Positions 8,901-28,508 of a stretch of 64,000 nucleotides of DNA are shown piece after piece; the first letter of the stretch is position 1; every line of letters begins with the position of its first letter. The translations under genes were made by a program, and so were the position numbers. The stretch spans positions 558,001 through 622,000 of the forward strand of contig AP024675.1 in NCBI GenBank assembly GCA_025998875.1, written 5' to 3'. Source of the stretch: Bacteroidota bacterium (lineage in GTDB: Bacteria > Bacteroidota > Rhodothermia > JANXDC01). The notes beneath the pieces are model-generated. The model was not told the DNA's origin. It was given only the letters and a program-made list of their open reading frames with translations, and did no database searches.

Positions 8901-9379
8901 ACCTGCATGATGGGGAACTGGGAGAAATCAATCTCCTGAATAACGGGATCGTCGGCGTCGGCCGGTAGCTTCGGCCGGGCCAGGGCGACTTTTTCCCGCA
9001 CCTTCTGCAGGGCTTCATCCATATTCGTGCCCGCGACGAACTCGACCGTCACCTGGCTGTATCCCTCGCGGGAGCGGGAGGTGATCTGTTTGACCCCCGG
9101 AATGGACTTCAACGCGGTCTCGATGGGACGGGTGATAAGGGTTTCGATGTCGCCGGGAGAGACCCCCAGATACGGGGTGGCCACGATGATGGTGGGCACC
9201 TCGATTTCGGGCGTGGACTCCTTGGGCACGGAAACATAGGCGATCAACCCGCCCACCAGGATCAGGCCCACGAGCACGAACACCGCGGTTCTGTATCGAA
9301 CGGCCAGCTCCGTCAGACCGAAACGTCGAACCAACGGAGCCCCATTTTCGTGCAATCCGCCGTTCTGAATGGAGGCCAT
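5963..9379 (-). CDS. RND multidrug efflux transporter, HAE1/AcrB family
   Basis: This 1138-residue inner-membrane proton antiporter would form the pump of a tripartite efflux system. It begins with a cytoplasmic segment and TM1 (about residues 30-50) and then VPKESTPEIEVPTI, a typical porter-domain entry. TM4 carries the proton-relay pair in ALGILVDDAIVVVEN (Asp416/Asp417). The second half repeats the architecture (SIIMTGLGIISLAGVAVRNGIVLIDY). The length exceeds the usual ~1040 because of a longer loop with extra hydrophobic segments around residues 520-580. It starts 11 bases after the adaptor gene and is last in the operon tetR-outer membrane factor-adaptor-pump. The substrate cannot be read from the sequence. 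Confidence 0.95.
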   Translation of the reverse strand: MASIQNGGLHENGAPLVRRFGLTELAVRYRTAVFVLVGLILVGGLIAYVSVPKESTPEIEVPTIIVATPYLGVSPGDIETLITRPIETALKSIPGVKQITSRSREGYSQVTVEFVAGTNMDEALQKVREKVALARPKLPADADDPVIQEIDFSQFPIMQVNISGPYSLVTLKRIADDLKERFEQIPQVLEVTLSGGLDREVQVYASLKRLKHYGLTFTDLLNAIRSENLTLPGGNIDFEQRRFSVRVPGEFQDPLQIRDLVIKTLNGRPVYVRDVAVVDFGFRERTSYARLNGQPVVTLSIKKRSGENIIETAEQVKAILDQARASLPPGVRIDITGDQSKTIAVMVHDLQNHIIAGLILVVVVLLFFMGVRNAVLVGVAIPLTMLLTFIVISLLGYTMNMIVLFSLVLALGILVDDAIVVVENIYRYVDEGYDRVTAARLATAEVAVPVITATLTILAAFFPLLFWPGIVGEFMKYLPITVIIALTCSLFVALVVNPAIAATFMRREGDAGPGLHRNARLLLMIGLGLLGLLALLVSWITFLVLLVGSLLAWVLNRWVLQPGIRWFIRRGMPGLADRYEQLLRWGLRHRALVLGGMFGIWLLTFVLFAVLNAGVEFFPNTPPRTIAVNVEFPPGTTLDRTDEAVRTVETLVGRLPGLQDAESVVAISGGGGDPMGFSGGGALNKGSVTLNLIDYHRRQYDAFETLRQIREMVPDALAGADVAVVRNTMGPPTGPPINIEIIGEDFRVLKELSDRVLEVLRRSPVYAKLDGLKSDMNEMRPELVVYVDRERAALYGLNTQMIASTIRGAINGVEAGKYRDGEDEYPITVRLSPEDRASLAVLDELVVLKEGRQIPLSAVARWELTEGLGAINRKDLDRVATISANVKDEYNANAVLQEVQTVLRDVELPVGYTMRFTGQRQDQEEAFRFLGRAFLIALLLILLIMVAEFNSIVKPLIIAVSVVLSIIGVLWGLMLFRMPFSIIMTGLGIISLAGVAVRNGIVLIDYTDLLRARGLSLEEAVVRAGRTRLRPVILTASTAILGLVPLTVGMNIDFLGLLTRLEPDFFWGGEQSAWWGPMGVAVIVGLSVSTFLTLVVVPVLYVVVERGRQWFRRTFTLADSVPLAEIPVSVSEGQPSES

Positions 9380-9390
9380 AGCGCGTCTCC

Positions 9391-10500
9391 TTATTGCGTC
9401 GAAACGGGTCGGGCGAGGTTGAGGATACGAACCGGATCGTTGGGATTGAGCCGCTCAAAGCCGGTCTTGATGAGGAGCTCTCCGGGCTGGAGTCCTCGCT
9501 GCACGACCACATTCCCCTCGTTTTCTGGACCCAGCTCGACAAGGCGCGCCTCGGCTCTGTAGGAGCCATCGGGCTGAGGAACGGCCACAAAGACCTGGAA
9601 CCCGTTCTCGGTCCGGTTGAGCACGGCCTTGGGGATGGCAAGCACCCGGGGCAGCCGCTCAAGCAACAGATGCAGCTCCGCCACCATCTCCGGCTTGATC
9701 AGCCCCCGTGGATTGCTCAGCTCCACCTCGATGGGCAGGGTGCGGTTCTGCCCGTCCAGGGCAGCGCCCACATAAGCGATGCGCCCCTGGAAGGTGCGGC
9801 CGGGCAGGACATCGAAGCGGAGCTCTACCGGCATGCCCGTTCGAATTCGCTCGGCCCACTGCTCCGGTACGCCGGCGACAACCCGGATGCGATCGATCTG
9901 TAGCAGGCGCACCACGGGCGCTCCGGGCGCGGCCATTTCGCCCTCGCGCACAAAGAGCCGCTCAACGACCCCGGACACGGGGGCGCGTATTACGGCTTTC
10001 TCCAACCGGGCCTCCAGGGTCTGGAGTTTGGAGAGCGCCGCGGCGTAGTTGTATCGGGCCTGCAGGTATTGCAGTTCGGTGCCTATGGAGTCCTCCTCCC
10101 ACAGGCGCCGCTGGCGTTCGTATGTCTCTCGGGCCAGCTCGTAGGCAGCCCGGGCCTCCTGCAAAGCGGCCCGCAGCAGGGTATCGTCGATCTTCATGAT
10201 CGGCTCCCCGGCCCGCACATACCTGCCCTTGTCGGCATACACCTGCGCTACCCTTCCCCCCTCCTCTGCGGCCAGCCGCAGGTCATGGTAGGCGGTGGCC
10301 GTGCCGACCAGCCGCAGGAGCACTTCGAAGGGCCCGGGCTCCAGGCGCACCACCTCGACGTTGATCGTTCGCGCCGAAACAGCCGATGCCGGGGAGGTGG
10401 AGGCCGGACTACCGGCACCGGCGGACTGCGAAGCGGGACGGCATCCGAGCATGAAGAGCACACCGCCCAGCAATGCCCCGAAAAGACGGTTCATGAACAT
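9391..10500 (-). CDS. RND efflux periplasmic adaptor lipoprotein (membrane fusion protein)
   Basis: This 369-residue protein has a lipoprotein signal (LFMLGC lipobox near residue 19, Cys retained), so it is probably anchored in a membrane and bridges pump and outer-membrane channel. The order is typical of HlyD/AcrA adaptors: a barrel-sandwich half (VAQVYADKGRYVRAGEPIMKID), a helical hairpin around residues 100-165 (coiled coil with ELARETYERQRRLWEEDS), the second lipoyl half (VIRAPVSGVVERLFVREGEM), and beta-barrel plus membrane-proximal domains. Two close starts, 10500 and 10494, are possible. It lies between the outer-membrane factor and the pump with gaps of 14 and 11 bases. Confidence 0.93.
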   Translation of the reverse strand: MFMNRLFGALLGGVLFMLGCRPASQSAGAGSPASTSPASAVSARTINVEVVRLEPGPFEVLLRLVGTATAYHDLRLAAEEGGRVAQVYADKGRYVRAGEPIMKIDDTLLRAALQEARAAYELARETYERQRRLWEEDSIGTELQYLQARYNYAAALSKLQTLEARLEKAVIRAPVSGVVERLFVREGEMAAPGAPVVRLLQIDRIRVVAGVPEQWAERIRTGMPVELRFDVLPGRTFQGRIAYVGAALDGQNRTLPIEVELSNPRGLIKPEMVAELHLLLERLPRVLAIPKAVLNRTENGFQVFVAVPQPDGSYRAEARLVELGPENEGNVVVQRGLQPGELLIKTGFERLNPNDPVRILNLARPVSTQ

Positions 10501-10514
10501 GATGATCGGCTCCT

Positions 10515-11888
10515 TTATCCGTTTTCCTCTACGTCCGGCACATACCCCATGGCTCGATCTAGGTCGGCGCGGGCCACAAGGGCGTCGTAGACAGCCTGCA
10601 GCCGGTTAACCTCGGCCTGCGTGAGCAGGAGCTCGGCATCCTGCAGCTCCAGCTGGCTACCCATTCCCTGCCGATAGCGCGCCCGGGCGATCTCATACCC
10701 CCGGCGCGCCTGCTCCACGGTTCGGTTCTGGGCCTCCAGGCGGGCCAGGGCCTCACGCAGGTTGCCGATGAGCGTGCGTAGCTCCGCCTTGGCCAGCTCT
10801 TCAAGCTGCTCCTGCTGCGCCAGGACCTGCTGGTACCCCACCCGGGCCTGCTCCACCCGGGCCAGGCGGCGGAACCCGGAGAAGATGGGCACCTGCAGCT
10901 GGATACCTATGGCCAGGCTGTTGACAAAGCGCTGTTGCGGATCCCCCATGCCGAAGAAACGAAACCGCTCCCCCTGCGCCTGCCCCTGCCAGCTGGCAAA
11001 AGCATACAGGCTCGGGTAAAAGCTGGCCCGCTCGGCGGCCACGCGCTGGGCCTCCAGCTGAGCCCGGATGCGGACCTGACGCAGGTCCGAGCGCCGCTCG
11101 CGGGCTACGGCGAAGGCCTCCTCCAGACTCGGAATCGGCCGCGTATCCGCATACACCAGCGCCCCACCGACCTCCAGAGGTGCAGCCACATCGATGCCAA
11201 TCTGCGCCTTGAGCGCGTTCTTGGCCGCCTCCACGGCGTTTTGCGCCCGGATGAGCTGAGGCCTGAGGTTGGCCAGCTGTACCTCCAGACGCAACACATC
11301 GTAGCTGGAGACCATACCCTGCGCCTCCAGCGCTCGCGCCTCCCGTAGAGCGGCTTCCGTGCGCTCTATGCTCTGCTCGATGAGCCGCACCTGCTCCTGG
11401 GCCAGCAAGACGCCATAAAAGGCCCGCTTGACGGCCGTCACCACCTCCAGCCTGGAACCCCGAAAGGCCTCTTCGGCGAAATCCTCATAAACGCGCGCCA
11501 CGCCGAGCCCGATGAAAACCTGCCCCTGAAAGAGCGCCTGGCGCACCGTGATCCCCGTACTCCAGGCATTCAGCGCCCCCACAGTGATGGGCCGCAGAGG
11601 ACGCTCTCCGTTCGGACCCGGTTCGGCAGTAAAATCCGGAAAGAAGAAAACAGGACGCTTCACGTTGTTGGTGTACTGGGCCTGGGCGGAAAACTCCGGG
11701 TACACGTTACCCCAGGACTCCCGCACCTGCTGCTGGGCACGCTCCCATTCCAGCTGTGCCACGCGAAGCTGTCGGTTCCGATCCAGCGCCAGGGCGATGG
11801 CCTCCTCCAGCCGAAGCGGCTTTCCGGGACCCTGCGCCCCTGCGAGCATCGGCCATAGCCCGATGAGCGAACACAAGATATGGCGCAT
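10515..11888 (-). CDS. TolC-family outer-membrane efflux protein
   Basis: The 457-residue protein has a Sec signal (MRHILCSLIGLWPMLAGAQG). The duplicated TolC/OEP pattern follows, starting with LRLEEAIALALDRNRQLRVAQ and repeating coiled-coil helices with beta segments in between. It would form the outer-membrane duct of the tripartite pump encoded downstream. It starts 21 bases after the tetR stop, so it is the first structural gene of the efflux operon. It is distinct from the second TolC-like gene at 24.9-26.2 kb. Confidence 0.93.
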   Translation of the reverse strand: MRHILCSLIGLWPMLAGAQGPGKPLRLEEAIALALDRNRQLRVAQLEWERAQQQVRESWGNVYPEFSAQAQYTNNVKRPVFFFPDFTAEPGPNGERPLRPITVGALNAWSTGITVRQALFQGQVFIGLGVARVYEDFAEEAFRGSRLEVVTAVKRAFYGVLLAQEQVRLIEQSIERTEAALREARALEAQGMVSSYDVLRLEVQLANLRPQLIRAQNAVEAAKNALKAQIGIDVAAPLEVGGALVYADTRPIPSLEEAFAVARERRSDLRQVRIRAQLEAQRVAAERASFYPSLYAFASWQGQAQGERFRFFGMGDPQQRFVNSLAIGIQLQVPIFSGFRRLARVEQARVGYQQVLAQQEQLEELAKAELRTLIGNLREALARLEAQNRTVEQARRGYEIARARYRQGMGSQLELQDAELLLTQAEVNRLQAVYDALVARADLDRAMGYVPDVEENG

Positions 11889-11909
11889 ACGTATGCTTCC
11901 TCTGGATTT

Positions 11910-12539
11910 CTACGTTCTGGGTAGCAAGCCCTCGAACAGGACCGATATGACGAAATCGGCCAGTTCCCCGGGGGGCGGGATGGGCTCCTCCTGACGGGCG
12001 GCTAGCATCATATAGTGATGCACGGCCCCCAGGATCATGTACACCACCCCGTCGGGCGATAAAGGCCGGATCTGACCCCGCTGGATTGCCTCCTCCAGCG
12101 GCCTGCGGAGTATCGCCACCAGCTGCTGATGCCTGTGCATCCAGTAGCGACCCTCCTCCCGCTGGGAAGCCTCCAACAACAGGCGTTGGCCCTCCTTGAT
12201 GAGGATGCGAAACAGGTCCAGGTTCTCCTGAAAGAGCTGAATGGATTGGAGCATGTACTGGCGATATTTTTCCTGCAGAGGCAACTGACCGACCATGGTG
12301 GCCTCGGCCAACCTCAGGGCCTTTTCGTAGACCTCATCAAGAATGCTGAAGAAAAGCTCCTGCTTGCTGGAGAAGTAGTTGTACACCGTACCCTTACCCA
12401 GTTGGGCGCGGTGGGCGATCTCCTCCAGCGTGGCACCCTCGTAGCCCCGCTCAGCGAAAATCTGCCGCGCGGCGGCCAGCAATTCGGCCCGTCGCTGCTG
12501 CTTCTCCCGCTCTCGGCGCGAAAGCTCGCTATCCCCCAT
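11910..12539 (-). CDS. TetR/AcrR-family transcriptional repressor
   Basis: From ATG 12539 the protein has 209 residues. The N-terminal helix-turn-helix (RAELLAAARQIFAERGYEGA, then LEEIAHRAQLGKGTVYNYFSSKQELF) is a clear TetR DNA-binding domain. The all-helical C-terminus would be the ligand and dimer domain. An in-frame ATG at 12560 is less likely because it lies inside the first operator palindrome. The gene heads the efflux operon, and two TGACCnnnnGGTCA palindromes lie directly upstream. This fits autoregulation and repression of the pump, relieved by a pump substrate or lipid-like ligand (inference). The same double operator lies in front of the 26.2 kb operon, which has no tetR of its own. 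Confidence 0.93.
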   Translation of the reverse strand: MGDSELSRREREKQQRRAELLAAARQIFAERGYEGATLEEIAHRAQLGKGTVYNYFSSKQELFFSILDEVYEKALRLAEATMVGQLPLQEKYRQYMLQSIQLFQENLDLFRILIKEGQRLLLEASQREEGRYWMHRHQQLVAILRRPLEEAIQRGQIRPLSPDGVVYMILGAVHHYMMLAARQEEPIPPPGELADFVISVLFEGLLPRT

Positions 12540-12559
12540 GCCTGTTCCCGCTACCAGCA

Positions 12560-12592
12560 TGACCAATGGGTCACTTTATGACCGACGGGTCA
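12560..12592. promoter_or_regulatory. Double TetR-type operator upstream of the efflux operon
   Basis: Two perfect 5-bp-arm palindromes of form TGACC-N4-GGTCA lie at 12560-12573 (centre AATG) and 12579-12592 (centre GACG). Their centres are exactly 19 bp apart. The 5-base spacer between them reads TAAAG on the minus strand. They sit 20-53 bases upstream of the tetR ATG. Two facing sites on nearly the same helix side are typical for TetR-family dimers binding in pairs. Confidence 0.8.
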
Positions 12593-15674: not shown

Positions 15675-16880
15675 ATGGATCAGCAGATCGATGTACTCGT
15701 CGTCGGAGCCGGCCCGGTGGGGATGTGGACGGCGCTTCGGTTACGACAACTCGGAGTCCAGAAAATCCTCCCCATCGACCGCACCCACCGCATGCACCTG
15801 CACAGTTACGCCCTGGCCCTGCATGGCCGCACGCTCGAACTCCTGGAAAAGGCGGATCTGTTGCAGGAAGTGCTCGCCCGGGGCCACCGCATCGAACGCA
15901 TCGCCCTCTACGAGGGCGACCGCCTGCAGGCCGAACTGGACCTTACCGCCCTGCCCGGATCCCACCCCTATGTGCTCGTATTGCCCCAGAGCACCCTGGA
16001 GGCCATTTTCGAGCATCACCTGCGGGCCCATCACACCCCGGTTCGGTGGCAGGAGGAACTGCTGGAGGCGGAAATGGGCCCTCGCTCGGTACGCGCCCGC
16101 ATCGGAACCATCAGCCAGGGCATGCAGGGATATCCCATACTGGAGCTCGTCGAACACATCGGACACCTCCGGGACCTGGAGGCCCGGTTTGTTGTGGGCG
16201 CGGACGGATTGCATTCCCGCATGCGTCAGCTCCTGGAGATCGACTATCCGCTACTCGGAGAGCCCACCTATTGTACCTTCTTCGAATTCCACACCGCCGA
16301 ATCCCTGCCCGATGAGATGCGGCTACAGTTCGACGGCGCCCTCCGCAGTGCGCTCTGGCCCATAGGCCAGGGCCGTTACCGGTGGATATTTCAGATCGAG
16401 GCCGCTGAGGCCGATCGCCCCATCAGCTCAGAATGGTTCGATGAGCTGCTGCGCAGTCGGGCGCCCTGGTGGGCGGATGTGCCCCGGGAGGTCGTATGGA
16501 TGTCCAAGGCGTGCTTTGAGCCTCGTCTGGCAGAACGCTTCGGCTCAGGTCGATGCTGGCTCCTGGGGGATGCGGCACACCTGACCTGGCCCTTCGGGGT
16601 ACAGAGCATGAACCGGGGCATAGAAGAAGGGGAGGCGCTGGCCAGGGCCCTGCACGGGGTACTGCACGGGGGCGCCCCGGAAACGGCGCTGGAAATCTGG
16701 GCCGAGGAAGCTCGACGTTCCTGGGAGGCCCTGCTCGGCATCACGGCCCAACCCGAAGACGCGGGGGCCAGCGCCTGGATCTTGAGTCATCGATTCGAGT
16801 TGCTCTACAGCCTGCCGGCCACCGGAACAGATCTGGAGATGCTCCTGCACCAGGTGGGTCTGCGCTGGCGGGCATCCTGA
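15675..16880 (+). CDS. FAD-dependent monooxygenase (PheA/TfdB or UbiH-like)
   Basis: This 401-residue protein starts with the Rossmann dinucleotide motif VLVVGAGPVGMWTALRLRQLG. It has the mid-protein FVVGADGLHSRMRQLL (DG motif of group A flavin hydroxylases) and the C-terminal GD motif CWLLGDAAHLTWPFGVQSMN that contacts the FAD ribityl chain. Such enzymes hydroxylate or epoxidise aromatic or isoprenoid substrates with NAD(P)H and oxygen; the substrate cannot be named from this sequence. It has its own promoter and converges on the glycosyltransferase operon. The 15-base gap has only a weak hairpin (CCTGA...TCAGG). Confidence 0.88.
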   Translation: MDQQIDVLVVGAGPVGMWTALRLRQLGVQKILPIDRTHRMHLHSYALALHGRTLELLEKADLLQEVLARGHRIERIALYEGDRLQAELDLTALPGSHPYVLVLPQSTLEAIFEHHLRAHHTPVRWQEELLEAEMGPRSVRARIGTISQGMQGYPILELVEHIGHLRDLEARFVVGADGLHSRMRQLLEIDYPLLGEPTYCTFFEFHTAESLPDEMRLQFDGALRSALWPIGQGRYRWIFQIEAAEADRPISSEWFDELLRSRAPWWADVPREVVWMSKACFEPRLAERFGSGRCWLLGDAAHLTWPFGVQSMNRGIEEGEALARALHGVLHGGAPETALEIWAEEARRSWEALLGITAQPEDAGASAWILSHRFELLYSLPATGTDLEMLLHQVGLRWRAS

Positions 16881-16895
16881 GGGGGAACCGTCCCG

Positions 16896-18068
16896 TCAGG
16901 CGGATACGGATACCGAGGCGGACAGGCGGACCGCATCCTGATAATGCCCCAGCAGCTCCGCCATCACCCGTTCCCAGTCGAAGGTCTCTGCCCAGCGTCG
17001 GGCCTCCTGCCCCATCTGCCGTCGTAACGACTCATCGGAGATCAGCACCTCAAGATGGGCCACATACGTATCCACCTCGTAAGGCGGACAGAGGAAGCCC
17101 GTCTCCCCGTGGCGCACCAGGGAACGGCTTCCGGCTGCATCGGCGCAGACCACGGGAAGGCCACTTGCCATGGCCTCCAGGGTGACGTTTCCGAAGGTTT
17201 CCGTATCGGAGGGGAAGAAAAAGATATCGCTGGAAGCATACCCGGTGGCGAGTGCTTCCCCGCTCTGATGCCCCAGAAAACGGACAAAGGGCAGCGCGCG
17301 TTCCAGCTCTTCTCGCTCAGGACCGTCCCCAATGATCACCATGCGCACCCCCGGTCTGAGCTCCCGCAGGCGCTGGAAGACCTCCCGCAGCGTGGGCAGG
17401 TTCTTCTCCTGCACCAGACGGCTAACGAAGGTCACGATCTGGTCTTCCGGACCCGCGCCCACGGATCGACGCCAGGCCTCGGATCGACGGCCGGGATGAA
17501 AGAGCTGGGTATCCACGCCGCGCGCCCACCGGCGGATTTCCGTCTCCACCCCATGGGCGCGCAGCTCCTGTTCCATCTCCGGGGTGGGCACATAGACGTG
17601 CTGGCACTGGTTGTAAAACCAGGCGAAGTAGCGCCAGCTGGTGGCCTCTAATCCCTGCAGGTGGTAGTATTTGAGGTAACTAGCAAAATGGGTATGGTAA
17701 GAGGCCACGACCGGAATCCCGTGCTCCCGGCCATATCGCAGGGCCATCAGCCCCAGGAGGTCAGGGGTGGCCACGTGCAGGAGCGTAGGTCTAAAGGCGC
17801 GCAGCCTGCGCCAGAGCCGGGGAGAAAAGGGCAGAGAAAACCGATACTCGGCTCGTCCCGGAATGGGGACAGAAAAAACGGGGACCAGCTCGCCCTCCGG
17901 TTGCAGGGCGGCCCGAGGGGCAGCGGGACAGAAAACCAGAACGGGGATCCCCTTTCTGCGCAGAAATCGCACCATTCGGTTCAGCGTAAGCGCCACCCCG
18001 TCGGGGATGTAATGGTAATTGCCCGTGAAAAGGGCCACCCGCAACGGTTCGCAATCAGCGATGCTCAT
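16896..18068 (-). CDS. GT4-family glycosyltransferase, SqdX/MgtA-like
   Basis: This 390-residue GT-B enzyme begins LRVALFTGNYHYIPDGVALT, the acceptor-domain start typical of glycolipid mannosyl- or sulfoquinovosyl-transferases. The C-terminal donor domain has the family pattern SDTETFGNVTLEAMASGLPVV (EX7E motif). Such enzymes usually add a sugar from a nucleotide donor to a lipid at the inner face of the membrane. It lies 12 bases after the MMPL transporter gene and is the last gene of the eight-gene operon that starts at 26219. The acceptor and sugar are unknown; glycolipid assembly is inferred from the subfamily look and neighbours. Confidence 0.9.
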   Translation of the reverse strand: MSIADCEPLRVALFTGNYHYIPDGVALTLNRMVRFLRRKGIPVLVFCPAAPRAALQPEGELVPVFSVPIPGRAEYRFSLPFSPRLWRRLRAFRPTLLHVATPDLLGLMALRYGREHGIPVVASYHTHFASYLKYYHLQGLEATSWRYFAWFYNQCQHVYVPTPEMEQELRAHGVETEIRRWARGVDTQLFHPGRRSEAWRRSVGAGPEDQIVTFVSRLVQEKNLPTLREVFQRLRELRPGVRMVIIGDGPEREELERALPFVRFLGHQSGEALATGYASSDIFFFPSDTETFGNVTLEAMASGLPVVCADAAGSRSLVRHGETGFLCPPYEVDTYVAHLEVLISDESLRRQMGQEARRWAETFDWERVMAELLGHYQDAVRLSASVSVSA

Positions 18069-18080
18069 ACATCCAGTAAG

Positions 18081-20651
18081 TTACGATGCAGCCGGCGAGG
18101 ATGCACGCCCCGAGGTGGGCACCAGCCACCCCCTTTTCGGAAGCCGTCCCCTATCTTCCAGGTACTGCAGCAAGGCCGGTTGGAGCAAAAGGGCGCTGAG
18201 CAGGGTCAGGCCCACCCCGAAGAAGGCGACAAAACCCATGCTCCAGAGGCCGGGATGCAACGTGGTAAAAAGCCCTCCGAAGCCGAGCATAGTCGTGCTC
18301 GAGCCGATGGTGATGTGCTCTCCTGTGCTGCGCAGCACCCACCGAAGCCGACCTGGCCCCTCTTCCTGATAGCGGTGCGTAATATGCACCCCGTTATCTT
18401 CCCCGATGCCCAGCACGGCGGGCAAAACGGTGATATTGTACAGGTTGAAGAGCATCCCGAAGAGCCCCATGAGCCCGAAAAGCCACCAGAATCCCAGGAG
18501 CAGGGGCAACATGGCAATAAGGGTCCAGCCCAGCGATCCGAAGGTCAGCCACATCAAGGCGACGATCACCATCAGCGTACCTCCGATCATATAGGGCATC
18601 TCGGCCTCCATGAGTTCGATCATTTCGGCCGCGACGATGGAGGAGCTGGCCGCATAATAGACTTTGCCGTTGGGCAACACGACCCGTCCCACATCTTCCT
18701 TGAAGGCGATGGAGTTGCGCACATCCGATAGACCCACGGCGGGGTAGACCACGACGAAATTGCCCACCGTGCCGGCGCGGGTTAGGAAGAGCTGCTTGAG
18801 ATAGTCAGGCACCTCCTCAGCCCGCAGGGGACGGTCCACCTGAGCCGCCTCACGCAACTGCTCCAGCAACGCGCGCGTCTGCGCATCGGCCGCCTGCAGG
18901 AGAGGGTCCTCCAGCAACTGCCGGATTTCGGCCAGCAGGGCCAGTTTGCGGCGCTGGGCTTCGGGATCGGCGGGAAGCCGTTCGGCCAGAGCCTCTACGG
19001 AAAGGATCGTCGGAGAGGTGGAGTCCTGCTCCATGCGCTGACGCAACACGGCCGCCACCGCGGCCGCATCCTCCGGGCTATCGGTGACGATGTAGGCGGG
19101 ATTACGCTTCTGCACATATCCGAAGACCCGCACCTCCAGCTCGCGCAGGTGGGCGTACTCGGCAAACTCGGGCTCGAGCTTACCGAAGTCGTACTCGAAT
19201 CCCAGACGAGGAAGCGCAAGCAGACACAGGAGGGATATCCCCAGCCCCATGCCCAGCACAAGGCGCGGGGCCGGAAAGCGCCCCTCGCCCCGGCCGATCA
19301 CCTCCTGCCTGCGCGGGGGTAGATGCAACAGGCCATAACGCTCGACCAGCACCAACAGGGCGGGCAGGACCAGCAGGGCACTGAGCAGAGCGGATAGAAC
19401 ACCGGTTCCGGCGATAAAGCCGAATTCCGAAAACCCACGAAATCGAGCCAGCACCAGCACGTACAGGGAGGCCGCCGTGGTCAGAGCGCTTGTGGCGATG
19501 GCCGGTCCCGCCCAGCGCACCACGTGCTCCAGAGCCGAGAAGATATCCTCCCCTTCGGTGCGCAGTTCCACATAGCGGGCATAGGCGTGGATGCTGTAGT
19601 CGATCCCCATCCCGAAGAGGATCACAAACAGCACGGCGGTCATGAGGTTGAGTTTGCCGAAAAGCCACCACGCCAGCCCGAACGTCCAGCTAAGCCCCAT
19701 CAGCAGGGGCAGACCAATGAGCAGCAGGGTCAATGGCACGCGCAGCAATTCCTCCAGGTAAGCGCGCCGCTTCGAGGTCCCGGCTCGTATGCGTGCCCGG
19801 GCGGTCTTGAGCCAGAAGTACCCGGTAAGCAGGGCCAGTACGCCCGAAAACCCCGCGGCGAAGCTGGAAAACACATCATGCGTGATGGCCTCTACCTCAA
19901 AGAGCCGCCTCCGCATCCGTCCCCCGAGCTCGAGACGCATCTCGGGATGATAGCGTTGCGGCTGTAGCTGCTCGATTAGCCGCTCCAGCTGCTCATAGAC
20001 CCGCCGCACGTATCCGACGTCCGTCTCGCCCCCCGTGGGGATCAGCTCGACGATCATGATCGTGCTATCGTCGGATACGGGGTAGCGTTTGGGCAGGATC
20101 GTGTTGTAGGCGTCCTGTAGCAGGCTTCGCTCCCGCACCTGGAGCGCCTGTTCGAGGCTGTCGGGGGCTTCTTCGAGCTCGAAGAAAAACGGGTTAAGAC
20201 GCAGGCGGGCGCGTTCGGCCTCCCGTTCCAGGAAGCGCTTCAGCACCTGCAGTTCCTGTTCTGTAGCCAGATACAGGGCTCGATGACGAAACGGGCCCGG
20301 ATCGCGCTCGAAGTCGATGCGCCGGAAAAGCGGCTCTCCGGTAAGCGTATCCCGGAGCAGCCGGGCCCGCTTAATGGCCTCTCGGGCGAAGGCCAGATTG
20401 GCCTCGAAAGAAGGGCTCTGGATGATGAGCTGCACCCTGGATTCGGCCCCCAGAGTCTGACGGAGGCGATCAAGGGCGACTACGCTCGGATGATCCGGGG
20501 GCAGGAGATTGGCCAGATCCGTATCCACGCGCAACCGCAGGCCGTAATAGCCCCCCCAGAAAGCAAGCAGACCGGCTATAAGCAGCATCCAGGTGGGATG
20601 CCGGTACAGACGCACCAGATACGGGGCCAATCGGGCAAAGAGCGCGTTCAT
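18081..20651 (-). CDS. MMPL-type RND transporter (HpnN-like, putative lipid exporter)
   Basis: The 856-residue protein has RND topology: TM1 (about 20-38), then LRLRVDTDLANLLPPDHPSV, a start shared by hopanoid-type and MmpL-like RND proteins. Two clusters of TM helices follow. One contains LFVILFGMGIDYSIHAYARY and the second VLPAVLGIGEDNGVHITHRY, each with the acidic residues of the proton relay. At ~860 residues it is shorter than drug pumps and fits the lipid/MMPL branch. Its ATG overlaps the stop of the DUF3047 gene. An MlaC-like gene in the same operon recalls the HpnM/HpnN pairing, so export of a lipid or glycolipid is the working inference. Confidence 0.88.
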   Translation of the reverse strand: MNALFARLAPYLVRLYRHPTWMLLIAGLLAFWGGYYGLRLRVDTDLANLLPPDHPSVVALDRLRQTLGAESRVQLIIQSPSFEANLAFAREAIKRARLLRDTLTGEPLFRRIDFERDPGPFRHRALYLATEQELQVLKRFLEREAERARLRLNPFFFELEEAPDSLEQALQVRERSLLQDAYNTILPKRYPVSDDSTIMIVELIPTGGETDVGYVRRVYEQLERLIEQLQPQRYHPEMRLELGGRMRRRLFEVEAITHDVFSSFAAGFSGVLALLTGYFWLKTARARIRAGTSKRRAYLEELLRVPLTLLLIGLPLLMGLSWTFGLAWWLFGKLNLMTAVLFVILFGMGIDYSIHAYARYVELRTEGEDIFSALEHVVRWAGPAIATSALTTAASLYVLVLARFRGFSEFGFIAGTGVLSALLSALLVLPALLVLVERYGLLHLPPRRQEVIGRGEGRFPAPRLVLGMGLGISLLCLLALPRLGFEYDFGKLEPEFAEYAHLRELEVRVFGYVQKRNPAYIVTDSPEDAAAVAAVLRQRMEQDSTSPTILSVEALAERLPADPEAQRRKLALLAEIRQLLEDPLLQAADAQTRALLEQLREAAQVDRPLRAEEVPDYLKQLFLTRAGTVGNFVVVYPAVGLSDVRNSIAFKEDVGRVVLPNGKVYYAASSSIVAAEMIELMEAEMPYMIGGTLMVIVALMWLTFGSLGWTLIAMLPLLLGFWWLFGLMGLFGMLFNLYNITVLPAVLGIGEDNGVHITHRYQEEGPGRLRWVLRSTGEHITIGSSTTMLGFGGLFTTLHPGLWSMGFVAFFGVGLTLLSALLLQPALLQYLEDRGRLPKRGWLVPTSGRASSPAAS

Positions 20652-21436
20652 CTCAGGGGTATCAGCTCTGTGGCCAGCTCCGGACGCTCCAGAGCGATCA
20701 GGTTATCGAAATCCGCCAGGGACTGATCCCGCACGGAATCGGAATCCGACCATAGCCCTATGGCGAGCACCACCTCCGGAGGTTCAGCGCCAAAAAGGCG
20801 GCGGTAATCTTCCCGCACGTTGCGCACCACCGTTCTCCACTGACCCAAGCCCCCCGATCCGCTGGCGACTACGACGACCTTCAGGTTGCCGAAGATCCCT
20901 TTGCTCACCACGGTCCCCTCCGGGAGGGTACTACTCCAGACATACCGGATCGTGCGCGGTATGCCGAGGGCGTTCACGGAAAAGGTGATCATCACGCCTG
21001 CGGCGGAATCATCCAGATGGCCTTGGTCCTCCCGCGCCCCCACGGGGAGCCGATGCAGACGCCAGTTCCAGTGAAGCACGGGATAGGCACGTAGGTTCCA
21101 CGACCGACGCTCTGCATTGGGATAGAGGATGTATGTCCAGGCCCGCCGGGTATGGACGCGTACAAACTGGTTGTCGCATTCCCGCAATATCCGGAACGGA
21201 TATCGGCCGGAGGCCGTATCGGAAGCCACAATCGGGCGCAGCCGGCGATCTTCCAGCACCCTCCAGGCCGACGGCCAGAGCCCGACCCGCTCGGACTCGA
21301 AGTCCTCGATTACCACCACAGCGGGCGGAAGGGGCGATCGCAAAGGGGGAAGACAATCCCCACCGCGGAAACCCGAACCCTGAGCTCCGCCATGCCAGAA
21401 CCAGGAGAAGAGCACCAGTACAGGAAACCCCATCAT
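20648..21436 (-). CDS. Secreted DUF3047-family protein
   Basis: This 262-residue protein has an N-terminal signal (MMGFPVLVLFSWFWHGGAQG). The body shows DUF3047 features: an IEDFESE start, the central YVWSSTLPEGT, then VRNVREDYRRLFGAEPPEVV and a GLWSDSDSV near the end. The family is usually exported and has no established function; a beta-sandwich carbohydrate-binding-like fold is plausible. It directly abuts the membrane protein gene (no gap) and overlaps the transporter by ATGA, so it is strictly part of the operon. I infer that it handles the exported product in the periplasm. Confidence 0.7.
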   Translation of the reverse strand: MMGFPVLVLFSWFWHGGAQGSGFRGGDCLPPLRSPLPPAVVVIEDFESERVGLWPSAWRVLEDRRLRPIVASDTASGRYPFRILRECDNQFVRVHTRRAWTYILYPNAERRSWNLRAYPVLHWNWRLHRLPVGAREDQGHLDDSAAGVMITFSVNALGIPRTIRYVWSSTLPEGTVVSKGIFGNLKVVVVASGSGGLGQWRTVVRNVREDYRRLFGAEPPEVVLAIGLWSDSDSVRDQSLADFDNLIALERPELATELIPLR

Positions 21437-22411
21437 TCAAGCAGCCCGGGCTTGTTCGGGTAAGGAGACTGCCTGTTTAAACGCCCTTCTCCTGTCCGGG
21501 TTGCCCATCTGCAGAGCGAGCACAAGCACGTTGAGCGTTTTTTCCAACACAATCTGGGTAAGCAGCAGCGCCGCTACAGAGGCCGAGGAAAAGTTTAGCG
21601 AGCTGGCCAGCATGACCTGGAGGTTCATCACAAGCACCTCCTTTCCCGGAAGACCGGGCAGGCGGGCAGAGAGGATATCGACCACCAGCAGGGTAAACAA
21701 CCCCTTCAGGGGCACCCCCGGGGCCCCCGCATACCACATGCCGATCGTGCATATATGCACCAGAAGCAGCCGCCCGGCGTGTATACTGGCCAGCTCCAGC
21801 AAAACCCGGCCCGGAAGATGAAAGACAAAACGCCGGAACCGATATCCCGCTACCCCCAGGATCGCCCCCAGCACGGCCAGCCCTGCCCAGGAGGTCCACT
21901 CCCATCGGGGCAGGATCCGATCGGCCAGCGTGGCGTTGCCTATCAGCAGCAGGCCCACCAGGCTCAGGGCAAGCAGGGTGGATATACCCGCTGAAAGCAG
22001 GTTGTTATCCTTGATCCCCTGCCAGACCGCCCGGGTCGGGAGACCCAGCCTGCGCTGAGCCCAGAAAAACAGGTATGCCTCTCCGGAGTAGCCCAGCAGA
22101 TCCCGGTTGTAGACCCGCTTGAGCAGAAAGGTCCGCAGTCCCTCCGAGAACGGGAAACGCCAGATCCGGCGATATACCCATAGCTCCGAGACCGGGAGGG
22201 ACAGGTAGGAGAGCGCAAAAAACCCGTAAAACCAGGGGGAATCAGGCAGCTGTTCAAGGATCCGCCCCCAGCCCACGTGGCTCAAATGGTAGACGGATAC
22301 CGCTACCGCCGCCATGAAGCATAGGTACGAAACCCATCCTCCGATTCGGGAGAACATCTGGCTCCAGGGACGATCACGCCCGTAGACGATCCGCTGCGCA
22401 AGCCTCTTCAT
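21437..22411 (-). CDS. Polytopic membrane protein, LPG-synthase/flippase-like
   Basis: The 324-residue protein has about seven or eight hydrophobic segments (for example WVSYLCFMAAVAVSVYHL, STLLALSLVGLLLIG and GLFTLLVVDIL). The stretch LLGYSGEAYLFFWAQRRLGL recalls the conserved GE-containing motif of lysylphosphatidylglycerol-synthase TM/flippase-like proteins (UPF0104). That assignment is tentative. It overlaps the upstream GT2 gene by ATGA and abuts the DUF3047 gene. In this operon it is a good candidate for turning a lipid-linked sugar across the inner membrane, but no direct evidence is in the sequence. Confidence 0.6.
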   Translation of the reverse strand: MKRLAQRIVYGRDRPWSQMFSRIGGWVSYLCFMAAVAVSVYHLSHVGWGRILEQLPDSPWFYGFFALSYLSLPVSELWVYRRIWRFPFSEGLRTFLLKRVYNRDLLGYSGEAYLFFWAQRRLGLPTRAVWQGIKDNNLLSAGISTLLALSLVGLLLIGNATLADRILPRWEWTSWAGLAVLGAILGVAGYRFRRFVFHLPGRVLLELASIHAGRLLLVHICTIGMWYAGAPGVPLKGLFTLLVVDILSARLPGLPGKEVLVMNLQVMLASSLNFSSASVAALLLTQIVLEKTLNVLVLALQMGNPDRRRAFKQAVSLPEQARAA

Positions 22412-23199
22412 GGGCTCTGCTCCCGTTGCAACTCCGCCTCGTGGCGCAGAACCTCCCGGTCAGAGGAAAAGAGGGCAAAACTGGCCCGCTCGGCTTCGCT
22501 GAGCCGAAAAGCGGGGTGGTACCAGAGCGAACCGCGGATCCGGGCATATCCATAGCCCAGACAACCGAGGGGATGATTGCGCAGCCGGTTCAAAAAATGG
22601 GTCAGCTCCCAGGTATTGCGACCGTGATAACATCGGATAAACAGATAGGCGTACTCCCGGCCCAGGAGGCGTACGCGCCTCGACCACCAGCGATCTCGAT
22701 AGGCGGTATCCTCCTGACGGGCCCAATCCGGATAGCGTATTGCGGCTTCGCGCCGGTGCAGAATCGTCCCCGGCGTGCCCCGGCGGATCTGCGCGCGAAA
22801 GGGACGGCTTCTCCAGGTGGGCAAGTCCAGATGCACCAGCGTGTAGCGCAAGAGCACGGCATCATAGCCCTGCAGGGCATAATGCATCTGCACCCGGATA
22901 CGATCCGGATGATACCAGTCGTCATCGTCCCACTGGAGGCAGAACTCCCCTGTGGCCAGCTCCAGGCTGATATTGCGCAGCGCGCCCAGACTCAGACGGG
23001 GCCGACGGCCGATGCGCTCATAGCGCACCTGATCCGGAGGCAACTCCGCGAGCATCGGGCTCAGATCTGTCTCTCCATCGTCGACGACGACGAGCTCCCG
23101 GTTAGGCCAGTTCTGGCGCTGAAAACAACGCACGGCCTGCCTGACCCACTGCGGCCGATCGGCGGTGACCATCAGACAGCTAACCCGAGGCAGGCTCAT
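22408..23199 (-). CDS. GT2-family glycosyltransferase
   Basis: This 263-residue GT-A enzyme opens with PRVSCLMVTADRPQWVRQAV and has RELVVVDDGETD (nucleotide-sugar site). The acidic metal motif sits in ATGEFCLQWDDDDWYHPDRI. It has no membrane helices. The family moves a sugar from a nucleotide donor to many kinds of acceptors. It is the second of three glycosyltransferases in the operon; both its ends overlap neighbours by ATGA, so expression is tightly coupled. Confidence 0.9.
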   Translation of the reverse strand: MSLPRVSCLMVTADRPQWVRQAVRCFQRQNWPNRELVVVDDGETDLSPMLAELPPDQVRYERIGRRPRLSLGALRNISLELATGEFCLQWDDDDWYHPDRIRVQMHYALQGYDAVLLRYTLVHLDLPTWRSRPFRAQIRRGTPGTILHRREAAIRYPDWARQEDTAYRDRWWSRRVRLLGREYAYLFIRCYHGRNTWELTHFLNRLRNHPLGCLGYGYARIRGSLWYHPAFRLSEAERASFALFSSDREVLRHEAELQREQSP

Positions 23200-24239
23200 G
23201 AGACCACCGCATCCTCCACTGCTCGCGTTTCCGATACGGAAGCCTCACCACAGGGGGCTTGCTGCTGAAGCAGATGGGCCCATACCCGATCGGCGAAGGC
23301 ATAAAACGGACCTTTTTCGCGCAGAATGCCGAAATGCAGCGCATAGGGCGTTACGTACATATAATCCCCCCATCCGGGCAGGAGACTCAAGAGGCCCATA
23401 AGCAGCGTACGCAGCCAGACAGGCCTATAGGCCCGCATGGCGTACAGCAGAGGACGGGAATAGTAGAGCACGGAGACCTCTCGGAAGTCGGGATCGTACC
23501 GGGTGAAATCCGAGACGAAATCCAGCTGGGGGCTTTCCTGCCCCTGCAGCCAGGGGAAAACGGGCAAGTTCAGGCTGGCCATAGCCATGGCCAGGCTCCA
23601 TTCGGCCGATTCCTCGGATCGTCCCGCCTCCTGTCTGCGGCTGCGGAAGTGCGTCCGAGACATCTGGCTCAGGAAATACGAGGCCAGATCGCCGACCTGA
23701 CGGGCCAGATCCCGATCCTGGGCGAACATCATGCCCGCCTGGACCCGGCTCAGATACGTGAGCCCGAACCGGCTAAGCGTACGCGCTCGCCGATTGAGCA
23801 CCCAGTCCCAGATCACGCGCACATCTTTGGGACCTCCGAAGAAGACATCGGCGATTTGGGTGCCCGTGATCGTAAACGGGTAGGCCCGCAGGTGGTGCCA
23901 GAGGGGATCCGGAGGCCGACACCAGACCAGATCGGCATCCACATAGAGGGTGCGCTCGAAGGGCAGATACCGGTAAAAGTTGTGTTTGAAACCGACCACG
24001 GAGGCATGTTCGGACGCTAGCGGCAAGACCACATCGAACAGCTCCCGCAGGCCATGTTCGACCAGCGCGGCCTGATGCGCCTCCGTGCACACCAGCGCAA
24101 CCGGCCTCTGGGTATCATACCGGCGCAGGGTCGTCAGGGAGGCTACCGCATGTCGCAGATAGCGCAGATCTCCGTAGGAGACGTAGAGATAGCCCTCTTG
24201 GCCAAATGATTGTGGAATCCAATCCTGGGACATGTTCAT
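23196..24239 (-). CDS. GT8-like glycosyltransferase (nucleotide-diphospho-sugar transferase fold)
   Basis: ATG 24239 is chosen because AAGGAG lies 6 bases upstream and family-like sequence begins here (QEGYLYVSYGDLRYLRHAV); the open frame upstream runs into mlaC. The product has 347 residues. The DXD metal site is in RTLYVDADLVWCRPPDP, and a later YLSRVQAGMMFAQD resembles the acceptor-side block of GT8-type enzymes. The C-terminal third is less conserved. It starts 16 bases after the MlaC-like gene, the only non-overlapping junction in the upper part of the operon. Confidence 0.8.
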   Translation of the reverse strand: MNMSQDWIPQSFGQEGYLYVSYGDLRYLRHAVASLTTLRRYDTQRPVALVCTEAHQAALVEHGLRELFDVVLPLASEHASVVGFKHNFYRYLPFERTLYVDADLVWCRPPDPLWHHLRAYPFTITGTQIADVFFGGPKDVRVIWDWVLNRRARTLSRFGLTYLSRVQAGMMFAQDRDLARQVGDLASYFLSQMSRTHFRSRRQEAGRSEESAEWSLAMAMASLNLPVFPWLQGQESPQLDFVSDFTRYDPDFREVSVLYYSRPLLYAMRAYRPVWLRTLLMGLLSLLPGWGDYMYVTPYALHFGILREKGPFYAFADRVWAHLLQQQAPCGEASVSETRAVEDAVVS

Positions 24240-24255
24240 CTGGCTCCTTCTTTGC

Positions 24256-24873
24256 TCAGGAAGAGGCAGAGCGCGCCCGGCGCTGCAGGCGTTCCAGGAG
24301 GTAATTGAATCCACGGGTGCGCAGTACAGGCTCGAAGGAGCGCCGATAGCTCTGCGCGGTGCTGACCCCGTCGAGCAGATAATCGACGATGAGCCATGAG
24401 GCACCCCGTTTTCGCAACACATAGTCCACGCGCACCGTGGTGCGCTCCAGCGTGGCGCGTGTTTCCACGTAGGCGGAATCGCCGCTTACCCGAACGGCCT
24501 CGTATGAGACGCGGGCGCGGTAAATATCCAAATCCTTCAGGGAATTTTCCTCAATGACCTGCCGAAAAACGGCGACAAACCGGGCCCGCTCCTCCGGGCT
24601 GATGCGACCCCACCAGGCTCCCAGCGCCATGCGGGCCATGGCCTCGAAATCCATGAGCTCGGTGAGCACCTTTTTGAGCCGCTCTCGCTGCTCGGACGTG
24701 GGGGTCGTACCCCGGGGCCCCAGAATGGCCTTGATCTGCCGATCCCGGCCCTCGAGGAGGGAGCGGAGGCGGGCCTCTTCACTACTCTGGGCAACCGGCT
24801 CAGGCTCCGGCAAGCCGGGATTCAAGGACAGGATGCCGCACCATGTCAGCAAAGCTATGAGCAGAGGCCTCAT
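24256..24873 (-). CDS. MlaC/Ttg2D-like periplasmic phospholipid-binding protein
   Basis: This 205-residue protein has a signal peptide (MRPLLIALLTWCGILSLNPG). The MlaC pattern follows: FEAMARMALGAWWGRISPEE then RARFVAVFRQVIEE, a central strand-rich segment, and VRVDYVLRKRGASWLIVDYL leading into GVSTAQSYRRSFEPVL. In E. coli MlaC ferries phospholipids between outer and inner membrane complexes; the related HpnM is linked to hopanoid transport. No MlaA, MlaB, MlaD, MlaE or MlaF homologue is in the window, so here it probably works with the operon's RND transporter and TolC-like protein (inference). It overlaps the TolC-like gene by ATGA. Confidence 0.88.
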   Translation of the reverse strand: MRPLLIALLTWCGILSLNPGLPEPEPVAQSSEEARLRSLLEGRDRQIKAILGPRGTTPTSEQRERLKKVLTELMDFEAMARMALGAWWGRISPEERARFVAVFRQVIEENSLKDLDIYRARVSYEAVRVSGDSAYVETRATLERTTVRVDYVLRKRGASWLIVDYLLDGVSTAQSYRRSFEPVLRTRGFNYLLERLQRRARSASS

Positions 24874-26219
24874 GATTCTCCCCTTTTCTGGTGCATCAGC
24901 GCTTCATACAACCTGCCCGAGGCGCGCTGCAGGCGCAACCAGGCCAGGTATCGCTCATAGAGCACTGTATAGAGGTTGCGGCGGAGCTCAAGGCGGGCCT
25001 GCACGGCTTCGACGAGATCCTTGGCGCTGCCGAGATCCAGGTCGAAGTTGATCTCTTCGGTGCGCAACCACTCGTTGGCGACCCGCAGCGCGCGCTCCAG
25101 AGCCACAGAGGCGCTGTCTTTGGCCCGAAACTCGCTCCAGGCCTGGGCCACTTCCGCCTCGACAGCCCGTTTGAGCGCTTCGTACTGGGCGCGCACCTGC
25201 TCCCTACGCAGACGGGCTCGGTCCAGGGCCAGAGCGGTCAGGCGAAAGTTCAGATTCTGCCGGATCACGATCCCGGCCCCGATATAGCGGGCATTCATGG
25301 GATCGTAAACAAAGGGATTGCGGAAACGGGACACATGCGGAGCCAGGCTCAATTCCGCGCGCACACCCAGCAGGACCTGGGGCAAGCGGTCTAGGCGCGT
25401 GACCCGATACGTAGCCTCGGCCGCCTCCATAGCGGCGCGCAGGCCAAAGAGCTCAGGTCGGTAGGCGAGGGCCAGAGCCTGATATTCCTCCAGGGGACGA
25501 ATCGGAAGCGGGATGCGCTGCAGGGCGGAATCGAGCGGACGGATCTGGACTGAGGATGAGAGGCCAAGCTGCAGTCGCCATCCCTCCTGAAGCACCCTGT
25601 GCTGGCGTTCCAGCTCGAGGGCCTGCAGGCGCAACTGCTCCTCGAAGAGCCTGGCCTTGTACAGATCCGCCTGCCGAACCCCCTCTGCGCCCTCAGCCAG
25701 CAGGCTATCGAGCAGCCGGAGGGCGCGCCGCAGCAGTCCCTCGGCCTCTTGACGCAGCTCATCGAGGGCCTGCACGTACAAGGTTCCGTAATACAACTGC
25801 GCCACGCGCCAGGCCACTTCTTCCCGCTGCCGCAGCCAGTTCTGCTCGGCGGCCTCCTGGAGGGCAGAGGCAGCCTCTTGAAGTATTTTCGTTCGATTCC
25901 ACAGGTAGATGGGCTGCACCCCCTCGACGACCCACTGCGTGAAGGGACCTGGACGGGACCAATCCCAGCCGAGATCGGGATCCCGATAATCACCCTGAGC
26001 AGCGGGGGTGAGGGTCAGAAACCCGCGCAGGTTGATCTCCGGAATCCACCGCAGTGCGCGGGCGCGCTCCCGATCCACCGCGGCCGCCTCTATATCGGTG
26101 GCCGCCGCCTGCAAATCCGGGGCCTGCTCAATGGCTCGCTGCAGGGCCTGTGATACAGATACGACCAGCGAATCGGCCCCCCACCACAGGCCTATTCCCC
26201 ACACCCATCCGATGAGCAT
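24870..26219 (-). CDS. TolC-like outer-membrane channel protein, first gene of the glycosyltransferase/export operon
   Basis: The 449-residue protein has a short signal (MLIGWVWGIGLWWGADSL) and the duplicated helical/beta pattern of outer-membrane efflux proteins. It begins VSVSQALQRAIEQAPDLQAA and includes NLRGFLTLTPAAQGD and later LNFRLTALALDRARLRREQV. Its ATG lies 35 bases from a double TetR-type operator. It is separate from the drug-efflux TolC at 10.5-11.9 kb. As first gene of an operon with an MlaC-like carrier, three glycosyltransferases and an MMPL transporter, it may form the outer-membrane exit for the product. No adaptor (HlyD/AcrA) gene is in the operon, which is unusual. Confidence 0.85.
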   Translation of the reverse strand: MLIGWVWGIGLWWGADSLVVSVSQALQRAIEQAPDLQAAATDIEAAAVDRERARALRWIPEINLRGFLTLTPAAQGDYRDPDLGWDWSRPGPFTQWVVEGVQPIYLWNRTKILQEAASALQEAAEQNWLRQREEVAWRVAQLYYGTLYVQALDELRQEAEGLLRRALRLLDSLLAEGAEGVRQADLYKARLFEEQLRLQALELERQHRVLQEGWRLQLGLSSSVQIRPLDSALQRIPLPIRPLEEYQALALAYRPELFGLRAAMEAAEATYRVTRLDRLPQVLLGVRAELSLAPHVSRFRNPFVYDPMNARYIGAGIVIRQNLNFRLTALALDRARLRREQVRAQYEALKRAVEAEVAQAWSEFRAKDSASVALERALRVANEWLRTEEINFDLDLGSAKDLVEAVQARLELRRNLYTVLYERYLAWLRLQRASGRLYEALMHQKRGES

Positions 26220-26254: not shown

Positions 26255-26287
26255 TGACCGGCCGGTCAGTTTACGACCGCACGGTCG
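26255..26287. promoter_or_regulatory. Double TetR-type operator upstream of the export operon
   Basis: A perfect palindrome TGACC-GGCC-GGTCA lies at 26255-26268 (extended to 16 bp by flanking C/G), and CGACC-GCAC-GGTCG lies at 26274-26287. The centres are 19 bp apart and the 5-base spacer reads TAAAC on the minus strand. This is the same layout as at 12560-12592. It lies 36 bases upstream of the TolC-like gene and 49 bases upstream of the hbd promoter, so it could act on either direction; proximity favours the leftward operon. Confidence 0.78.
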
Positions 26288-26448: not shown

Positions 26449-27315
26449 ATGGCCCTGCCTGAAAGCATAGCCGTGGTGGGTGCGGGCACGATGGGAAACG
26501 GCATCGCCCACGTATTGGCCCTGCATGGGTTTACGGTGCATCTTGTGGATATTTCCCCTCAGGTCCTCGAACGCGCGCTGGCCACGATCGGGCGCAATCT
26601 GGATCGGCAGATCCGCAAAGGCCTCATCACAGAAGCGGAGAAAACAGCCACCCTGGGACGCATCCGACCTTACACGGATCTAGCCGCCGCCCTATCGGGG
26701 GTGGCCTTTGTGATCGAAGCCGTACCGGAGCAGGTAGAGCTCAAGCTGGACATGTTCCGCCGCTTCGATGCGCTCACCGCTCCGGAGGTCGTTCTGGCCA
26801 GCAACACCTCCTCGATCTCGATCACGCGCCTGGCTTCGGTCACGAATCGAGCGGAACGGGTGATCGGCATGCATTTCTTCAACCCCGTTCCTGTTATGGC
26901 GCTTGTGGAAGTCGTTTCGGGAATGGAAACCTCCGAGGAGACGGTTTGTCTGGTCGAGGAGTTGGCCCGAGCCCTGGAGAAAACCCCGGTGCGTGTGCGG
27001 GATTTTCCCGGTTTTGTCTCCAACCGGGTGCTCATGCCCATGATCAACGAGGCGATCTGGTGCCTCTATGAGGGGGTGGCCACCCCGGAGGCCATCGACC
27101 AGGTCATGCGGCTGGGCATGAACCATCCCATGGGCCCCCTGCGGTTGGCCGACCTGATCGGATTGGATGTATGCCTGCATATCTTGAACGTGCTCTATGA
27201 GGGCTTCCGGGATCCCAAATACCGGCCGTGTCCGTTGCTGGTCAAAATGGTAGAGGCCGGTCGACTGGGCGAAAAAACCGGACGGGGCTTTTACGAGTAT
27301 AACCAGCACCAGTAG
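26449..27315 (+). CDS. 3-hydroxybutyryl-CoA (3-hydroxyacyl-CoA) dehydrogenase
   Basis: This 288-residue enzyme has the NAD-binding motif IAVVGAGTMGNGIAHVLAL, then VIEAVPEQVELKLDMF, the catalytic-region pattern VLASNTSSISITRLASVTN with RVIGMHFFNPVPVMALVEVV, and a C-terminal helical dimer domain (DFPGFVSNRVLMPMINEA). It oxidises 3-hydroxyacyl-CoA to 3-ketoacyl-CoA in beta-oxidation or the reverse in butanoate metabolism. It is the short stand-alone (Hbd/PaaH) form. It is followed after 14 bases by an acyl-CoA dehydrogenase; no thiolase or enoyl-CoA hydratase is in the window. Confidence 0.95.
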   Translation: MALPESIAVVGAGTMGNGIAHVLALHGFTVHLVDISPQVLERALATIGRNLDRQIRKGLITEAEKTATLGRIRPYTDLAAALSGVAFVIEAVPEQVELKLDMFRRFDALTAPEVVLASNTSSISITRLASVTNRAERVIGMHFFNPVPVMALVEVVSGMETSEETVCLVEELARALEKTPVRVRDFPGFVSNRVLMPMINEAIWCLYEGVATPEAIDQVMRLGMNHPMGPLRLADLIGLDVCLHILNVLYEGFRDPKYRPCPLLVKMVEAGRLGEKTGRGFYEYNQHQ

Positions 27316-27329
27316 CAGGAGCAACCCCC

Positions 27330-28508
<1,179 letters not shown>

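Follow-up and report, generated by a model that had tools for sequence, protein, structure and literature searches.

The eight-gene operon

The window analysed here, a 64-kb stretch of the complete 2.35-Mb genome of a Bacteroidota bacterium of the class Rhodothermia (contig AP024675.1, positions 558,001 to 622,000), contains an operon whose products may build a glycolipid and carry it across the cell envelope. Eight open reading frames (ORFs) on the minus strand tile positions 16896-26219 of the window and are read from 26219 down to 16896, in the order TolC-like, MlaC-like, GT8-like, GT2, polytopic, DUF3047, MMPL/RND and GT4. Lengths are given in amino acids (aa):

24870..26219, minus strand: TolC-like outer-membrane efflux protein, 449 aa, signal-like N-terminus (PF02321, 108 bits)
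24256..24873, minus strand: MlaC-like periplasmic lipid carrier, 205 aa, signal-like N-terminus (PF05494, 105.7 bits)
23196..24239, minus strand: GT8-like glycosyltransferase, 347 aa (invariant DxD, D101 and D103; ATG at 24239 with AAGGAG)
22408..23199, minus strand: GT2 glycosyltransferase, 263 aa (PF00535, 56 bits; invariant QWDDDDW)
21437..22411, minus strand: polytopic membrane protein, 324 aa, MprF-flippase-like predicted fold (model against 7duw)
20648..21436, minus strand: DUF3047 protein, 262 aa, signal-like N-terminus, predicted jelly roll (PF11249, 104 bits)
18081..20651, minus strand: MMPL/HpnN-type RND transporter, 856 aa (PF03176, 111 bits; D351 and D752 invariant)
16896..18068, minus strand: GT4 glycosyltransferase, 390 aa, EX7E motif (PF00534/PF13439, 134/126 bits)

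ORFs and translations agree with the gene order given in a first-pass annotation made from the sequence alone, and the single abutting junction that it reported lies at 21436/21437. It had also counted five ATGA overlaps; we count four (24870-24873, 23196-23199, 22408-22411 and 20648-20651), the remaining junctions being gaps of 16 nucleotides between the MlaC-like and GT8-like genes and 12 nucleotides between the MMPL and GT4 genes. The fixed dosage that the annotation read from these junctions is conjectural. For the GT8-like gene the likeliest start codon is the ATG at 24239, which follows AAGGAG and lies past the MlaC stop codon; the ORF list had placed this start at 24422. On one side of the operon lies a convergent flavin adenine dinucleotide (FAD) monooxygenase gene at 15675-16880, on the other are divergent fatty-acid-oxidation genes at 26449-28508. 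No further surface-glycan genes were recognised among the window genes scanned.

Family assignments and predicted folds

Pfam confirmed six of the eight families proposed at first pass, leaving the GT8-like and flippase-like genes without a Pfam or NCBIfam match. For these two the readings are backed indirectly, the former by an invariant DxD and weak matches to nucleotide-sugar transferases and the latter by its MprF-like predicted fold. The GT8-like protein does not match the Pfam glycosyltransferase family 8 domain, and a PDB sequence-profile search with its family returned nothing useful; some of its relatives give weak matches to the nucleotide-sugar transferase models PF03407 and PF11051. 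D101 and D103, invariant in seven aligned sequences, correspond to the conserved DxD of GT-A nucleotide-sugar transferases, and among the matches listed from 297 genomes of the phylum the family occurs in Rhodothermia only. In the GT2 alignment QWDDDDW is invariant, leaving the DDDDW motif intact, and the GT4 protein keeps its EX7E motif as judged by eye. The best of 42 NCBIfam families for GT4 is NF053787, GlcN-phosphatidylglycerol synthase, at 180 bits against a cut-off of 480.

The model of the polytopic protein (predicted local distance difference test, pLDDT, 84) has one convincing match in the PDB, MprF (7duw; probability 1.00, E 3e-3, TM 0.62), with 18% identity in the structural alignment; the next fold match has an E-value of 0.42. 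Pfam returned chance matches only for this family. By its predicted fold the protein is a putative MprF-type flippase, which may flip lipids. The DUF3047 model (pLDDT 90.5) matches the carbohydrate-binding modules CBM11, CBM28 and CBM30 and the beta domain of glucuronyl C5-epimerase, which suggests a carbohydrate-binding-type jelly roll that may bind glycans. Because the jelly rolls of ciliary proteins match too, the fold only hints at glycan binding. A PDB sequence-profile search with the DUF3047 family gave nothing useful, and in the open-access literature searched a single paper names the domain. Plasmid searches yielded distant, mostly proteobacterial DUF3047 matches and one weak MMPL match, and found no GT8 relative. 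A second, full-length DUF3047 subtype occurs in 21 genomes of the class (L001-L021) and is not adjacent to MMPL at any of the five loci inspected (L051-L055).

In the MMPL protein, PF03176 is over cut-off in two stretches. D351 and D752 are invariant in 16 sequences, within GxGID and GIGxD motifs, and we take them to be the residues that relay protons in MMPL transporters. The closest solved relatives in PDB-profile matches are the HpnN structures 5khn and 6wu0. In a scan of named genomes by exact peptide patterns the sole matches to this transporter were two Rhodothermus contigs at ~50% identity, which agrees with a placement of the genome in Rhodothermia. The MlaC-like protein lies well over the Pfam MlaC cut-off of 26 bits, and its PDB-profile relatives are MlaC and Ttg2D. 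The best NCBIfam match of the TolC-like protein, TIGR01844, reaches 66 bits against a cut-off of 225. As the first-pass annotation had noted, the operon lacks an adaptor, with none among the eight genes by Pfam or NCBIfam; a HlyD-type gene at 9391-10500 belongs to a separate operon.

The same annotation had likened the MlaC and MMPL pair to the hopanoid proteins HpnM and HpnN. These are indeed their best NCBIfam matches, yet the scores fall far under the cut-offs: 67.5 of 160 bits for MlaC against HpnM (TIGR03481), and 241 of 752 (TIGR03480) and 122 of 1100 bits (NF052374) for MMPL against HpnN. Against the BstA family MMPL scores 151 of 1400 bits. Squalene-hopene cyclase (TIGR01507) had no match in the genome itself and none over cut-off in 20 relatives, in a search in which two control genomes matched below cut-off. 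Nor were hopanoid genes seen among the window genes scanned, which agrees with the earlier remark that none lies nearby. The alternative that the first-pass annotation had raised against itself, a standard hopanoid exporter with its cyclase gene elsewhere, accordingly fails, and hopanoid export was rejected as a candidate function given the missed HpnM and HpnN cut-offs and the hopene cyclase that was not found.

Conservation across Rhodothermia

Conservation was assessed in 60 genomes of the class, comprising the host genome and 59 relatives, of which the closest is one genome of the same genus, followed by genomes of the same class. Of the 60, 57 carry the MMPL clade and 44 the GT8-like gene; the flippase-like gene occurs in 40 and the matching subtype of DUF3047 in 39. 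All eight genes are kept in order in the sister genome (L031), and two genomes of another family (L035 and L036) have seven of the eight within ~18 kb. DUF3047 lies no more than 1 kb from MMPL in 31 of its 39 genomes, and TolC-MlaC stands directly upstream of the GT8-like gene in 26 of 30 loci read. Second copies of the MMPL clade are found at another locus in four genomes (G008, G014, G022 and G053).

Presence of DUF3047 and of the GT8-like gene agrees in 51 of the 60 genomes (37 with both, 14 with neither); the other 9 are discordant. On the MMPL gene tree, which was used as a stand-in for the species tree, eight independent genome pairs differ in DUF3047; the GT8-like gene follows DUF3047 in six of them and runs counter to it in none (median p 0.03). 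Even where MMPL is near-identical, in a set of four genomes (G028 versus G006, G012 and G051), DUF3047 and the GT8-like gene are either both there or both missing. DUF3047 and the GT8-like gene are gained and lost together, and the inheritance of the two modules to which they belong is linked. The co-occurrence of at least six members that had been proposed at first pass stands for L031, L035 and L036 and is extended by the linked gain and loss; in several families the set is split into two modules that lie tens of kb or more from each other. We found no description of the eight-gene set in the open-access literature.

In relatives the clusters acquire further neighbours, namely Wzi, Wzx-type flippases, sulfotransferases, a CDP-glycerol-type glycerophosphotransferase, HTTM proteins, and a myo-inositol-phosphate synthase together with a nucleotidyltransferase. 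This company points to surface lipids or glycans; none of these added genes lies within the 64-kb window itself. Five genomes (L096, L097, L098, L099 and L107) are without the DUF3047 subtype, the GT8-like gene and the flippase-like gene, and in them MMPL still stands beside the inositol-phosphate synthase and nucleotidyltransferase; perhaps an inositol-bearing lipid is the MMPL cargo in some lineages. The same five genomes also encode, beside MMPL, a ~350-aa and probably secreted protein of an unrecognised family.

Lipid A genes in the class

LpxC was found in none of the 60 class genomes by a search that matches in E. coli, Caulobacter, Synechococcus and Bacteroides, and LpxB was over cut-off in none of them, with controls that match. 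The LptD model likewise matched none of the 60, and the Bacteroides control was unmatched too. Since LpxC and LpxB were not found, Rhodothermia probably lack lipid A and thus classical lipopolysaccharide (LPS). Assembly of an LPS core was rejected as a function of the operon for the same reason. We found nothing in the open-access literature that says outright that Rhodothermia are without lipid A; a Salinibacter genome paper describes O-antigen clusters with abundant glycosyltransferases and sulfotransferases (PMC6060240), and a sulfonolipid in Salinibacter is cited in PMC6508672.

A shared operator

Three further entries in the window concern the possible control of the operon:

26255..26268, no strand: operator-like palindrome TGACCGGCCGGTCA, 35 nucleotides upstream of the operon's first codon, one of three TGACCNNNNGGTCA in the window
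12560-12573 and 12579-12592, no strand: tandem TGACCNNNNGGTCA pair around the TetR gene start, from a motif scan of the window
11910..12566, minus strand: TetR-family regulator, candidate regulator of the eight-gene operon through the shared operator (PF00440, 63 bits)

Three occurrences of TGACCNNNNGGTCA in 64 kb compare with 0.05 expected, and TGACCGGYCGGTCA at the operon is the sole exact copy in the genome. The TetR gene leads an AcrB (RND)-HlyD-TolC efflux operon at 5963-12566. In the sister genome L031 the pair of TetR sites recurs at 17156-17188 with its 19-nucleotide spacing kept, and a site with one mismatch precedes the operon at 4840-4853. As the operator is common to both operons in both species, co-regulation of the pump with the eight-gene operon, or with the divergent fatty-acid genes, is likely, and the TetR protein probably controls the eight-gene operon together with the nearby RND pump. 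Promoter and terminator scans stayed at chance level. The divergent genes at 26449-28508 encode a 3-hydroxyacyl-CoA dehydrogenase and an acyl-CoA dehydrogenase and point away from the operon across the operator site, likewise in the sister genome. Elsewhere in the window, a FlgE-type flagellar hook gene lies at 55660-57009, in agreement with the flagella reported for the class.

A proposed glycolipid assembly and export line

We judge the chances about even that the operon is a line for making and exporting an envelope glycolipid in a host that probably lacks LPS. The GT4 enzyme, whose family is clear, would add a sugar to a membrane lipid in the cytoplasm, and the GT2 and GT8-like enzymes might extend or decorate the resulting glycolipid. 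The protein with the MprF fold may then flip it to the periplasmic leaflet, where the HpnN-like MMPL transporter would draw on the proton gradient to extract it from the inner membrane. Beside the transporter, the periplasmic DUF3047 jelly roll could bind the sugar part while MlaC shields and ferries the lipid part to the outer membrane, where the TolC-like protein might receive it. More speculatively, the HlyD adaptor of the probably co-regulated pump operon could be shared. Least secure in this scheme are which lipid is carried and what the TolC-like protein does without an adaptor. The co-occurrence of the genes, the failure of the hopanoid alternative and the flippase and glycan-binder folds support the first-pass proposal that an envelope glycolipid or other glycoconjugate, in our account a putative product, is made and exported here. 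Because the host is without LpxC and LpxB, the product probably belongs to an outer surface that is not built on LPS.

Several observations weigh against this proposal. The flippase assignment comes from a model with a modest E-value, and on the MMPL tree the flippase-like gene follows the same direction as DUF3047 without significance. In several families the two modules, TolC-MlaC-GT8 and DUF3047-MMPL, are separated by ~35-280 kb or lie on different contigs. MMPL is retained in 57 of the 60 genomes, which implies that it works without the rest of the set too, and Wzi and Wzx beside the clusters of relatives hint at a capsule as well. It is unlikely, in our estimate, that in many Rhodothermia the operon builds an outer-leaflet glycolipid in place of LPS through an uncharacterised route, the complete series of MprF-like flippase, HpnN-like RND transporter with glycan-binding DUF3047, MlaC and adaptor-less TolC. 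With the GT8-like gene absent in about a quarter and the DUF3047 subtype in a third of the genomes, both varying within genera, the product is unlikely to be a sole or essential substitute for LPS.

Among the other explanations, a capsule or exopolysaccharide is the most serious, although we give it a distinctly minor probability. The transferases would build a polymer or oligosaccharide that DUF3047 binds, with TolC (and Wzi in relatives) at the outer membrane and MMPL and MlaC supplying or recycling a lipid anchor. The carbohydrate-binding-type fold of DUF3047 would suit this arrangement, as would the relatives' clusters with Wzi, Wzx, sulfotransferases and the CDP-glycerol-type glycerophosphotransferase. 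However, the operon studied here, which is a compact form, has no polymerase, co-polymerase, Wza or Wzx, and the combination of MlaC, an HpnN-like MMPL and a lipid-flippase fold suits a lipid cargo better.

It is improbable that the operon serves Mla- or HpnN-like lipid trafficking for upkeep of the outer membrane, with transferases that merely modify ordinary head groups. MlaC and HpnN-like parts are present, and MMPL, found in 57 of 60 genomes, outlasts the loss of the transferases; yet three transferases share the operon, the GT8-like gene and DUF3047 are gained and lost jointly, and MlaFEDB-type genes are absent from the operon. MMPL proteins are known alongside aryl-polyene clusters, and acyl glycosyl carotenoids from Rhodothermia, so that export of a glycosylated pigment or secondary metabolite, such as a salinixanthin-type acyl-glycosyl carotenoid or an aryl-polyene-like lipid, might be envisaged. 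We regard this as highly improbable, as neither the operon nor the recurrent neighbours scanned showed carotenoid or polyketide genes. A standard HpnM/HpnN hopanoid exporter joined by unrelated transferases, for all that these two families are the best matches, is nearly refuted by the low scores and the missing cyclase described above.

The outer-leaflet composition of two-membraned bacteria without LPS is an open question, for which the glycolipid line proposed here offers a candidate coat. Sugar transfer, lipid flipping and carriage across the periplasm would come together in a single operon, and DUF3047 would acquire its first plausible role, that of binding glycans in the periplasm next to an MMPL transporter.

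Comparison with known systems

The operon resembles HpnM/HpnN in pairing an HpnN-like RND transporter with a periplasmic protein of the MlaC family; hopanoids need HpnN to be localised to the outer membrane (Doughty et al. 2011, cited in PMC10942540). It differs in scoring under both cut-offs, in being without a hopene cyclase and in its union with transferases, a flippase-fold protein, DUF3047 and TolC. The BstA/BstB/BstC system of Methylococcus capsulatus (PMC10942540) likewise combines an HpnN-like inner-membrane RND transporter with a periplasmic carrier and an outer-membrane-associated protein, but BstB and BstC come from other families and the Bst cargo is a sterol. The predicted fold of the 324-aa protein fits the flippase part of MprF, the lysyl-phosphatidylglycerol synthase/flippase, whereas the synthase domain is missing.

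Mycobacterial MmpL exporters (MmpL3, MmpL12) also place an MMPL-family transporter with glycolipid-building genes, and MmpL12 transports lipooligosaccharides according to PMC12507525; they belong to another MMPL subfamily and another envelope, whereas the present operon adds MlaC and TolC as partners. With tripartite RND pumps such as AcrAB-TolC the operon shares the grouping of an RND transporter with a TolC-like protein, but it is without a membrane-fusion adaptor, and its RND transporter is of the MMPL rather than the AcrB type. Set against these systems, the operon is a variant on MMPL-type lipid export and not a separate kind of system.

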